64,000 nt of DNA from Hyphomicrobiales bacterium (GTDB lineage: Bacteria; Pseudomonadota; Alphaproteobacteria; Rhizobiales; Rhizobiaceae): contig UCKS01000056.1 in assembly GCA_900473045.1 (NCBI GenBank), positions 1-64,000 of the forward strand. Direction: 5' to 3'. The position numbers and the translations under genes were made by a program. Positions within the stretch are counted from its first letter, which is position 1. Each line of letters starts with the position of its first letter. Of this stretch, positions 4,749-8,501 are shown piece after piece. The notes under the pieces are model-generated. The model made no database searches. It had not been told where the DNA came from and saw only the letters and a program-made list of their open reading frames with translations.

Positions 4749-6635
4749 TCAATCCATGGTGTGGATATCGCGATCCTTGGTTTCGGGCAGGAACAGCATA
4801 CCGATCACCAGCGTGATGCCGGCGAACACGATCGGGTACCAGAGGCCATAGTAGATATCGCCCTGGGCGGCACTCATCGCGAAGGCCGTTGCGGGCAACA
4901 GGCCACCGAACCAGCCATTACCGATATGGTAGGGCAGGGACATGCCGGTGTAGCGGATGCGGGTCGGGAACAGTTCGACCAGCAGTGCTGCGATCGGGCC
5001 GTAGACCATCGTCACATAGATGACGAGCACGGTGAGCACGGCGATGACGCCAAGCCAGCTGACCCTGGCCGGATCGGCAACCATGGTGAAGGAGCCGCCC
5101 TTGTCGATGGTGTAGACCGGCATTTCGGTGACGCCTGCGGCTTCCTCGGCCGTCAGGAGCTTGGCCGCAACCAGCTGCTCGCCGGTCATGCTTGCCTTGT
5201 CGCCACCGCGAACGGCTGCGGCATCGAGCGTCAATTCCGGATTGGCGGCAACGAAGCCGTCAAGCTTGCTTTCCGGAACCTTTGCAGCACCACGAACGAG
5301 CGGATAGCCGGCATCGTGGAGGGCAATGTTGATCTGCTTTTCGAAGGTTGCACCCGATGCCTTGGCCTTGTCGCCAGCAGCAATCGCGTCGTAGCCAGTG
5401 ACCGTTTCCTCGCCGATCTTGACGGTTGCCGGCGTGCCGGCAGGACCGGGGACGACGTCATACGGAACCGAGTTGCGCGTCAGGAACGACGTTGCGATAT
5501 CGCAGGATGTCGTGAACTTCGCCGTGCCTGTCGGGTTGAACTGGAACTTGCAGTCGTCCGGAGCGGCAGTGACCGTCGCGCGGATGGTTTCCTGCGCTTC
5601 GGCGAGCGCCGGGTTGCCGGCCCAGGTCAAGGCCTTGAACAGCGGGAAGTAGGTGAGCATGGCAAGAACCAGACCAGCCATGATGATCGGCTTGCGGCCG
5701 ATCCTGTCCGACAGCGCCCCGAACACCACAAAGAAGCCGGTGCCGATCAACAGCGATATGGCCACCATGATGTTGGCCGACTGGCCGTCCACCTTCAGGA
5801 TGTTCTGCAGGAAGAACAGCGCGTAGAACTGGCCGGTGTACCAGACGACGGCCTGGCCGACGACGGCGCCGAACAAGGCCAGAAGCGCGATCTTGGCGTT
5901 TCTCCACTGACCGAAAGCCTCCGTCAGCGGTGCCTTGGAGCCCTTGCCTTCTTCCTTCATCTTCTTGAAGGCCGGCGATTCATTCATCTTCAGGCGGATC
6001 CAGACGGAAACGCCGAGCAGGATGAACGAGAGCAGGAACGGAATGCGCCAGCCCCAGGCGGCAAAGGCTTCCTTGCCCAGCATCATCTGCACGGCAACGA
6101 TGACCACCAACGACAGGAACAGGCCGAGCGTCGCCGTCGTCTGGATCCAGGAGGTGAAATAACCGCGCCGCCCCTGTGGCGCATGTTCGGCCACATAGGT
6201 GGCAGCACCGCCATATTCGCCGCCGAGCGCCAGGCCCTGCAGCATGCGCAGCACGATCAGAAGGATCGGAGCGGCGATGCCGATCGAGGCGGCACCGGGC
6301 AGGATGCCGACGAGGAACGTCGACAGGCCCATGATGACGATGGTGACGAGGAAGGTATATTTTCGGCCGACGAGATCGCCGAGACGGCCAAACACCAGCG
6401 CGCCGAACGGACGCACGAGGAAGCCTGCCGCAAACGCCAGAAGGGCGAAGATGTTACGGGTGGTTTCCGGATATTGGGAAAAGAAGGTCGCACCGATATA
6501 GACGGCCAGCGAACCGTAGAGATAGAAATCGTACCATTCGAAGATCGTGCCGAGCGAAGAGGCGAAAATCACCTTCTTCTGCTCGCCCGTCATCGGTGCA
6601 GCCTTTGCACCGGGCGCTACTGCGACATCTGCCAT
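4749..6635 (-). CDS. MHS-family MFS metabolite:H+ symporter with a large extra loop
   Basis: A 628-residue major-facilitator transporter of the metabolite:H+ symporter type (ShiA/ProP/KgtP relatives), visible from IFEWYDFYLYG in helix 1, RPFGALVFGRLGDLVGRK after helix 2, QGLALGGEYGGA in helix 4/5 and SDRIGRKP between helices 8 and 9. Family members usually have 420-450 residues. Here about 180 residues (roughly 341-524) are inserted between helices 9 and 10, on the predicted periplasmic side, including two cysteines (Cys362, Cys378). The transported substrate is unknown. The start at 6635 has GGAGGA upstream. Confidence 0.85.
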   Translation of the reverse strand: MADVAVAPGAKAAPMTGEQKKVIFASSLGTIFEWYDFYLYGSLAVYIGATFFSQYPETTRNIFALLAFAAGFLVRPFGALVFGRLGDLVGRKYTFLVTIVIMGLSTFLVGILPGAASIGIAAPILLIVLRMLQGLALGGEYGGAATYVAEHAPQGRRGYFTSWIQTTATLGLFLSLVVIVAVQMMLGKEAFAAWGWRIPFLLSFILLGVSVWIRLKMNESPAFKKMKEEGKGSKAPLTEAFGQWRNAKIALLALFGAVVGQAVVWYTGQFYALFFLQNILKVDGQSANIMVAISLLIGTGFFVVFGALSDRIGRKPIIMAGLVLAMLTYFPLFKALTWAGNPALAEAQETIRATVTAAPDDCKFQFNPTGTAKFTTSCDIATSFLTRNSVPYDVVPGPAGTPATVKIGEETVTGYDAIAAGDKAKASGATFEKQINIALHDAGYPLVRGAAKVPESKLDGFVAANPELTLDAAAVRGGDKASMTGEQLVAAKLLTAEEAAGVTEMPVYTIDKGGSFTMVADPARVSWLGVIAVLTVLVIYVTMVYGPIAALLVELFPTRIRYTGMSLPYHIGNGWFGGLLPATAFAMSAAQGDIYYGLWYPIVFAGITLVIGMLFLPETKDRDIHTMD

Positions 6636-6886: not shown

Positions 6887-7103
6887 GCCGCCTCACCTCT
6901 TTTCGCCGCTGACCTCTTTCCAAAGTGTCCTCGTGGATGAGAGGCTGCCTGGCGTGTGCCGCCGATGAGCCGGACGGGGATCATCGCTTTTTGGTTTGCT
7001 TTCGAGCTGACGGCTCGCAAGCGTCAGCCGCATGACACCTTGCGTAACGTCTTGAGCGAGCGGGGGCGCCATGTCTTCGCGACCGTCATTTCTCGCTTGC
7101 CTG

Positions 7104-7131
7104 TTGACTCCGCGCCAAAACCGCGTATGAG
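7104..7131 (+). promoter_or_regulatory. predicted promoter of the asd leader/asd transcript
   Basis: TTGACT (7104-7109), a 16-base spacer, then TATGAG (7126-7131). A start near 7138 would place the leader-peptide ribosome site AAAAGGA (7141-7147) almost at the 5' end of the RNA, as in classical attenuators. Confidence 0.5.
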
Positions 7132-7153
7132 CAGCAGCGGAAAAGGACCCACC

Positions 7154-7273
7154 ATGCACCGTTTTGGTTACGCCATCGCTGCGCTGATCGCCCCGTCATT
7201 TGTTGCCGGGCGGGTTCGTTCTTTCTCGATATTTTCCAAAACAATGGCCAAAACGACGACGAAAACCGTCTGA
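7154..7273 (+). CDS. putative attenuator leader peptide for asd, rich in Thr/Lys/Met
   Basis: A 39-residue frame with a good ribosome site (AAAAGGA, 6 bases before ATG). Its C-terminal twelve residues read SKTMAKTTTKTV: five Thr, three Lys and one Met in eleven positions. These are the end products of the aspartate pathway that the next gene, asd, feeds. All three Lys codons are AAA and Thr uses ACA and ACG, unlike the G/C-ending usage of neighbours. Two hairpins (7294-7312 and 7316-7344) lie between its stop and asd. The regulatory role is inference; it could also be a short exported peptide, since the N-terminal half is hydrophobic. Confidence 0.5.
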   Translation: MHRFGYAIAALIAPSFVAGRVRSFSIFSKTMAKTTTKTV

Positions 7274-7293
7274 CGTCTCTGGCCACCGCTCTC

Positions 7294-7344
7294 TCCCCGG
7301 CACGGCCGGGGACCCGAAACCCGCGCCTTTGGCCGGCGGGTTTC
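7294..7344 (+). promoter_or_regulatory. tandem hairpins in the asd leader (possible attenuator)
   Basis: TCCCCGGC ACG GCCGGGGA (7294-7312) is immediately followed by GAAACCCGC...GCGGGTTTC (7316-7344, perfect 9-bp stem, 11-base loop, then TTTCCCCC). GCCGG at 7305 can also pair with CCGGC at 7333, so the hairpins could be mutually exclusive with an alternative fold. The final T run is weak (3 T), as is common in GC-rich alphaproteobacteria. Confidence 0.4.
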
Positions 7345-7384
7345 CCCCAAAGCCCCGCGGAGAGACAGAAAGAGAGCAAAGACA

Positions 7385-8419
7385 ATGGGTTTCAAGATTG
7401 CTATTGCCGGCGCGACCGGAAATGTCGGCCGCGAGATGCTGAACATCCTCGAAGAACGGGGCTTTCCAGCAGACGAAGTCGTGGCGCTGGCGTCGGCCCG
7501 CAGCCAGGGCACTGAAGTGTCCTTCGGCGACAAGACGCTGAAGGTCAAGAACCTCGAAAACTATGATTTTTCCGACACTGACATTTGCCTGATGTCGGCC
7601 GGCGGTGCCGTGTCGCTGAAGTGGTCGCCGAAGATCGGCGCGCAGGGCTGCGTCGTCATCGATAACTCGTCGGCCTGGCGTTACGACCAGGACGTGCCTT
7701 TGGTGGTTCCGGAAGTCAATCCAGACGCGATCACCCAGTTCACCAAGCGCAACATCATTGCCAATCCGAATTGCTCGACCGCCCAGCTCGTCGTGGCGCT
7801 GAAGCCGCTGCATGACTTTGCCAAGATCAAGCGCGTCGTCGTTTCCACCTACCAGTCGGTCTCCGGCGCCGGCAAGGACGGCATGGACGAGCTATTCAAC
7901 CAGACCCGCGCCGTCTTCGTCGCCGATCCGATGGAGAGCAAGAAGTTCACCAAGCGCATCGCCTTCAACGTCATCCCGCACATCGATGTGTTCATGGAAG
8001 ACGGCTATACGAAGGAAGAATGGAAGGTGATGGCCGAAACCAAGAAGATTCTCGATCCGAAGATCAAGCTGACCTGCACGGCCGTGCGCGTTCCGGTGTT
8101 CATCGGTCATTCCGAAGCGATCAACATCGAATTCGAAAACGAGATCACTGCCGACCAGGCCCGCGACATCCTGCGCGAAGCCCCGGGCTGCATCGTCATC
8201 GACAAGCATGAAAACGGCGGCTACATCACCCCTTACGAATCGGCTGGTGAAGACGCGACCTATATTTCGCGCATCCGCGAGGACGCCACCGTCGAGAACG
8301 GCCTGAACATCTGGGTGGTTTCCGACAACCTGCGCAAGGGCGCCGCCCTCAATGCCATCCAGATCGCCGAGCTTCTCGTCAATCGCGGCCTGATCAAGGC
8401 AAAGAAACAGGCTGCCTGA
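7385..8419 (+). CDS. asd: aspartate-semialdehyde dehydrogenase
   Basis: A 344-residue NADP-dependent enzyme converting L-aspartyl-4-phosphate to L-aspartate 4-semialdehyde, the branch precursor of Lys/diaminopimelate, Thr and Met. The N-terminal Rossmann motif GATGNVG (9-15), the acylated active-site Cys130 in NPNCST, SVSGAGKDG in the middle and the conserved IGHSE are visible. Length is typical. It has a structured leader with a Thr/Lys/Met-rich peptide upstream and a strong hairpin terminator downstream, so it is likely transcribed as leader plus asd only. Confidence 0.96.
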   Translation: MGFKIAIAGATGNVGREMLNILEERGFPADEVVALASARSQGTEVSFGDKTLKVKNLENYDFSDTDICLMSAGGAVSLKWSPKIGAQGCVVIDNSSAWRYDQDVPLVVPEVNPDAITQFTKRNIIANPNCSTAQLVVALKPLHDFAKIKRVVVSTYQSVSGAGKDGMDELFNQTRAVFVADPMESKKFTKRIAFNVIPHIDVFMEDGYTKEEWKVMAETKKILDPKIKLTCTAVRVPVFIGHSEAINIEFENEITADQARDILREAPGCIVIDKHENGGYITPYESAGEDATYISRIREDATVENGLNIWVVSDNLRKGAALNAIQIAELLVNRGLIKAKKQAA

Positions 8420-8501
8420 GCAGAAACTATAAAGTTTTAACCAATTATACCAAATCTTGATGATACCACCCGATGGGTTTCTATCATCTCGATTTGGTAG
8501 A

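Follow-up and report, generated by a model that had tools for sequence, protein, structure and literature searches.

The asd leader locus

The window analyzed here is a 64,000-nucleotide stretch of DNA from a Hyphomicrobiales bacterium (contig UCKS01000056.1 of assembly GCA_900473045.1), and its subject is a short open reading frame (ORF) upstream of asd, which encodes aspartate-semialdehyde dehydrogenase. This enzyme carries out a step common to the synthesis of Lys, Thr, Met, and Ile, and both Lys and Thr are made downstream of it. Direct reading of the window confirms the arrangement described earlier by a sequence-only reading: a 39-codon frame with promoter-like boxes and a ribosome site, followed by two hairpins and asd.

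7104 to 7131, forward strand: promoter-like TTGACT (7104-7109), 16 nucleotides, and TATGAG (7126-7131), the putative promoter of the asd leader transcript, proposed from sequence only
7141 to 7147, forward strand: AAAAGGA, ribosome binding site of the leader ORF, read in the sequence and aligned in relatives
7154 to 7273, forward strand: leader ORF of 39 codons, MHRFGYAIAALIAPSFVAGRVRSFSIFSKTMAKTTTKTV and stop, with ATG at 7154 and TGA at 7271-7273, backed by conservation and by translation of SEP5, the presumed ortholog in Sinorhizobium meliloti
7238 to 7270, forward strand: Lys/Thr codon cluster KTMAKTTTKTV, the proposed sensor, backed by codon and residue counts in relatives
7385 to 8419, forward strand: asd, with ATG at 7385, matching TIGR01296 (471 bits) and NF011456 (528 bits)

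The leader ORF ends SKTMAKTTTKTV, and 111 untranslated nucleotides with C-rich runs follow its stop codon. A translatable short ORF is placed between a promoter-like site and asd, as in a leader-peptide attenuator. Conservation sets in at about TTGACT and continues into asd, as judged by eye in an alignment of 30 loci. A simple sigma-70 consensus scan lists no promoter in 6900-7450.

Distribution of the leader

A leader was called when at least six of the last 15 residues were Lys or Thr and the stop codon lay 60-170 nucleotides before asd. Every one of the 26 loci from the genus, among them that of the window, has such a leader. Loci L001-L140 were found with leader or leader-plus-asd DNA and therefore give no unbiased count; L141-L220 and L241-L359 were found by asd protein, and L221-L240 by blastn matches located largely within asd. 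Selection by asd alone gave the best 80 of 572 loci (asd 90-99% identical, most named as Rhizobiaceae genera; one lacked full upstream DNA), and 79 of the 79 with upstream DNA carry the leader. The sequence-only reading had proposed aligning asd upstream regions across Rhizobiaceae, and in these loci both the frame and its Lys/Thr end prove to be conserved.

A blastn search with the leader finds a match in 162 of 297 family genomes and none in the other 135. Nine of 15 unmatched genomes still reach the threshold, three (L373, L376, and L379) have a weaker leader with five Lys/Thr in 15 residues, and three (L371, L378, and L382) have no leader over the threshold. By eye, L378 and L382 contain short ORFs ending TIKTSIS and TIKTAII. 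Four further unmatched family genomes divide evenly, with a leader in L237 and L240 and none in L236 and L239. Among the 114 loci L027-L140, L050 falls below the threshold; its ORF ends KHTAKTSKII by eye. In some genera of the family (L373, L374, L376-L379, and L382) the leader may begin about 10-13 codons before the stop, with starts placed by eye, and Thr and Lys are mixed with Ile and Ser, as in MSARSTIKTAII of L382.

Across the order, 63 of 102 distinct asd upstream regions contain a leader, or 60 of 97 when five same-family loci are set aside. Dinucleotide shuffles of these regions yield a mean of 0.5 and a maximum of 2 (20 rounds), and their reverse complements yield 0. Two of the 63 are doubtful: L277 has an odd asd start, and L330 is Lys-rich with few Thr. 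The 102 omit identical upstream regions, the short L245, and L241, L242, L258, L262, and L264; L271-L330 were hand-picked for spread over families. Outside the order a leader is present in two of 28 loci. The peptides of other families differ in sequence (for example SKTSTTKTTTTA and ATKTTTTTKTTEL), the N-terminal half diverges between genera, and leader length varies. The Lys/Thr leader before asd is nevertheless retained in nearly all Rhizobiaceae examined and in many related families. The distant set referred to below consists of 65 leaders (54 after thinning): 60 from other families, L237, L238, and L240 from the same family, and L336 and L357 from outside the order.

Residues and codons of the cluster

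Across 189 Rhizobiaceae leaders, 45% of the residues encoded by the last 12 codons are Thr and 27% are Lys. Asn, His, and Gln, whose codons are equally rich in A and C, each make up at most 0.3%, versus 5-8% expected from base composition, and the other two reading frames do not have the Thr/Lys pattern. The sets used for residue counts had passed the Lys/Thr threshold, which excluded L050 (a Rhizobiaceae locus with full upstream DNA) and 39 of the 102 order loci. This conserved enrichment of codons for end products of the pathway is characteristic of leader-peptide attenuators.

The sequence-only reading included Met in the sensor. However, the window Met (7244-7246) is replaced by Thr, Lys, or Ala in most relatives: at this position, -9, the core clade (n = 137) has 58 Thr, 53 Lys, 14 Met, and 10 Ala, and Met is rejected as a sensed residue. 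Ile codons join the cluster in several lineages, including three loci named Agrobacterium (TAKTTIKTV); Thr is the precursor of Ile, so these codons would fit the pathway.

Codon choice was also proposed to set the cluster apart. In three neighboring genes AAA and ACA are indeed uncommon (3 of 67 Lys and 6 of 79 Thr codons), whereas ACG is not (26 of 79 Thr codons). In core-clade leaders AAA outnumbers AAG by 390 to 61, the reverse of the 3 to 64 in the neighboring genes. The expected bias toward synonymous change is not supported within the genus, where codons 28-39 differ from those of 25 relatives at 0.044 per synonymous site and 0.037 per non-synonymous site. Constraint on the peptide is apparent only across the family and order, not inside the genus.

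Competing RNA helices

The leader mRNA can form alternative pairings between the end of the ORF and the start of asd, built from the following elements.

7246 to 7261, forward strand: segment 1, GGCCAAAACGACGACG, pairing with segment 2 around the stop codon (swap test, pair counts)
7267 to 7284, forward strand: segment 2, CGUCUGACGUCUCUGGCC, pairing with segment 1 or, through 7275-7282, with 7306-7313 as helix 2:3 (swap test, pair counts)
7288 to 7296, forward strand: C box, GCUCUCUCC, CUCUCU before hairpin 1, complementary to GGAGAGA at 7359-7365 and AGAGAGC at 7371-7377
7295 to 7311, forward strand: hairpin 1, CCCCGG-CACGG-CCGGGG, whose 3' arm is the partner in helix 2:3 (sequence, pair counts)
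7316 to 7344, forward strand: hairpin 2, GAAACCCG...CGGGTTTC, variable in sequence and moderately supported
7359 to 7377, forward strand: D box, GGAGAGAC, with the Shine-Dalgarno-like AGAGAG of asd at 7371-7376 (sequence, conservation, swap test)

Pair statistics were taken from 56 of the 189 Rhizobiaceae leaders, and alignment A1 holds 53 of these (L095, L124, and L136 omitted). In this alignment helix 2:3 is paired in 87.8% of cells, compared with 71.6% for its best slid version. Helix 1:2 (7246-7250 with 7280-7284 and 7258-7261 with 7267-7270) is paired in 78.5%, compared with 42.2%, and one of its pairs undergoes a C-G/G-C exchange in 20 sequences. For both helices, none of 500 shuffles reaches the percentage paired or the covariation score. 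An alignment-free swap test, in which a segment is paired with its own partner and with the partners of other species, gives z values of -5.8 for 2:3 and -3.8 for 1:2 in the 56 Rhizobiaceae, while 2:D and other control pairs are flat. In 54 distant leaders the values are -2.7 for 2:3, -5.0 for C:three, and -4.8 for C:D, again with 2:D flat. The swap-test results persist after GC correction.

Several results weigh against this scheme. Pairs changed on both sides are as frequent in 366 of 500 shuffles for 2:3 and in 72 of 500 for 1:2, and further pair types in 338 and 241 of 500, respectively. Shuffles ignore relatedness, and these two counts are the measures least inflated by it. Some slid versions equal the real helices in doubly changed cells. 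Helix 1:2 is unsupported in the distant set (swap z -0.4, p 0.32), where the controls three:D and H2:D also score, as does A:D before GC correction (p 0.029). An earlier swap test with wider windows gave weaker results, with p values of 0.038 and 0.0066 for B:D and also 0.046 and 0.036 for A:D. RNAalifold applied to the whole element recovers only part of the structure.

By most measures, although not by every one, Rhizobiaceae sequences support 1:2 and 2:3 as mutually exclusive helices. In that family they are placed where a stalled ribosome could choose between them; in the distant set only 2:3 has support.

Terminator or ribosome site

Between the leader stop and asd no stretch of eight nucleotides in the window contains more than three T. 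A search for a U-tract (at least six T in eight nucleotides) finds one in just 3 of the 189 Rhizobiaceae leaders and 2 of the 65 distant ones. The region upstream of trpE in the same genome served as a positive control and has seven T in eight nucleotides beside trpL (IWWWAR, by eye; L387, about 1300-1425). An intrinsic terminator of hairpin and U-tract before asd is rejected because this tract is absent. The thrL/trpL design put forward by the sequence-only reading is thus retained for the Lys/Thr leader with competing hairpins, on the evidence of conservation, but not for the terminator.

Lack of a U-tract leads us to take translation initiation, rather than intrinsic termination, as the output. 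The C box is complementary to GA-rich boxes that lie on or beside the asd ribosome site, and this suggests translational control. In the Rhizobium-type core clade, CGCTCTCT (136 of 137 loci) faces AGAGAGC (130 of 137), and the latter overlaps the ribosome site of asd. In a folding model of the window, the cost of opening this site falls from 5.4 to 1.3-2.7 kcal/mol when the ribosomal P site is within five codons of the stop.

Other observations count against such an output. Many other families have a GGGAGAG-like box just upstream of the asd ribosome site. In Rhizobiaceae the swap test for C:D is marginal (z -1.6, p 0.054-0.058), C:D in alignment A1 is outdone by a version slid by -2, with CU/GA repeats as a confounder, and in single-species checks a species' own D box beats that of L091 in only one of six. 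In the window the opening cost is equally low with a ribosome at the stop codon as with one in the Lys/Thr codons. The same model, run on 35 of 137 core-clade loci, 26 of a set of 52, and 65 of 65, gives no general switch in relatives: core-clade costs are 5.9 ribosome-free versus 4.9-5.9, and the 65 distant leaders are flat. The alternative structures that the sequence-only reading asked to see folded are borne out as helices by most measures but not as a switch when ribosomes are included, and control at the ribosome site is a conclusion we infer.

Proposed mechanism and alternatives

Conservation of the leader suggests that cells may sense a shortage of Lys or Thr through the speed of leader translation. 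The element probably regulates asd as a leader-peptide attenuator, gauging how much charged Lys- and Thr-tRNA is available (in some lineages perhaps Ile-tRNA as well), with a predicted translational output. Under shortage of either Lys or Thr, the ribosome would stall on segment 1, helix 2:3 would form, and hairpin 1 would be undone. The CU-rich C box would then be held in a loop, leaving the asd ribosome site free and asd made. When both amino acids are plentiful, the ribosome would leave, helix 1:2 and hairpin 1 would form, and the C box could pair with the GA-rich box that overlaps or adjoins the asd ribosome site, lowering asd translation. The broader proposal, that this is an old two-amino-acid attenuator of the order (Rhizobiales/Hyphomicrobiales) that sets asd by translation as a terminator-less version of the trpL/thrL design, is tentative, with a chance slightly short of even. 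Confidence in both readings is lowered because two pair-count measures do not exceed shuffles.

The same Lys/Thr sensor might instead control early transcription termination before asd, either weakly intrinsic or Rho-dependent. The 1:2/2:3 arrangement is the classical topology of an attenuator, the untranslated C-rich stretch follows the leader stop, and in one relative within the order, L271, a hairpin-like stretch upstream of asd is followed by TTTGTTTT, possibly a terminator version. The rarity of U-tracts in asd leaders, set beside the seven T in eight at trpL, makes this alternative less likely. That the peptide acts in trans, or that the upstream ORF merely sets translational coupling or reinitiation of asd without sensing amino acids, is improbable. 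There is precedent in the trans role of the S. meliloti peptide peTrpL, and tagged SEP5 is detectable as a protein (PMC10117765). However, it is the terminal Lys and Thr, products made downstream of asd, that stay constant while the N-terminal half and the length change.

A purely nucleotide-level element, with an A/C-rich stretch kept for the RNA and an incidental Lys/Thr peptide, could account for the equally low synonymous and non-synonymous change within the genus, and this stretch overlaps helix 1:2. It predicts Asn, His, and Gln as common as Thr and Lys; instead they are nearly absent, and the other frames lack the pattern. Across families the nucleotides differ whereas frame-0 Thr and Lys persist, in a distant set that was itself chosen by the Lys/Thr threshold. 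This explanation is highly improbable.

Other features of the window and genome

No comparable Lys/Thr leader precedes the hom, amino-acid-kinase, or dihydrodipicolinate synthase-family genes of the same genome in an ORF scan of L360-L370; the only ORFs it returned, in L364, L365, and L366, are chance-like and were rejected. The asd leader region has no Rfam family match at gathering score. Three hits far below that score, all to unlikely families or on the other strand, were discarded.

Within the leader ORF, 7190-7211 contains a hairpin-like pair, GCCCCGGCA...TGCCGGGC in relatives and CCCGCGCG-TCA-CGCGCGGG in L028; its folding signal is weak overall. Between asd and the next gene, 8448-8499 holds an imperfect inverted repeat, TACCAAATC...GATTTGGTA, seen by eye and possibly the asd terminator. 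Upstream, 4749-6635 on the reverse strand encodes a major facilitator superfamily transporter of 628 amino acids; two parts of it match TIGR00883 (metabolite/H+ symporter), with a long soluble-looking segment between them by eye.

Relation to known leaders and significance

The sequence-only reading knew of no described asd leader in Rhizobiales, but S. meliloti SEP5 had already been noted. Its translation was demonstrated by Ribo-seq and Western blot, and it was described as a potential leader peptide "conserved only in Sinorhizobium" (Hadjeras 2023, PMC10117765). From position and codon count, we take SEP5 to be the same peptide as the window leader. In each of five loci named Sinorhizobium, the final 12 codons include exactly six for Thr and three for Lys. 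That account, in its accessible part, is limited to Sinorhizobium and gives no RNA structure, whereas here the leader extends to Rhizobiaceae and many other families and is joined by competing helices. The open-access literature searched yielded no further description of an asd leader from this order; asd is unnamed in the main text, as far as available, of PMC1273637, PMC8632094, PMC2965389, and PMC1262725. The peptide itself had been noted before, but nothing in the open-access literature searched reports its wide range, the alternative helices, or the absence of a terminator.

Among known systems, the enterobacterial thrL/thrABC attenuator likewise has a Thr-rich leader before aspartate-family genes and a ribosome whose position selects hairpins, but the asd leader combines Lys with Thr, precedes asd, and has no U-tract terminator. 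In the same genome, the trpL/trpE pair (like S. meliloti rnTrpL) shares a leader peptide with a regulatory codon run before a biosynthetic gene and differs in its T-tract. The Shine-Dalgarno-sequestering T-boxes of actinobacterial ileS direct an amino-acid response at the Shine-Dalgarno sequence instead of a terminator, as the asd leader may do, through T-box RNA and no leader peptide (PMC1262725).

These results would widen the published view of the S. meliloti peptide as confined to Sinorhizobium. If the proposed mechanism is correct, it would account for the way in which rhizobia and related bacteria adjust a step shared by the Lys, Thr, Met, and Ile pathways, and it would represent a terminator-free leader-peptide attenuator at work in much of a bacterial order.
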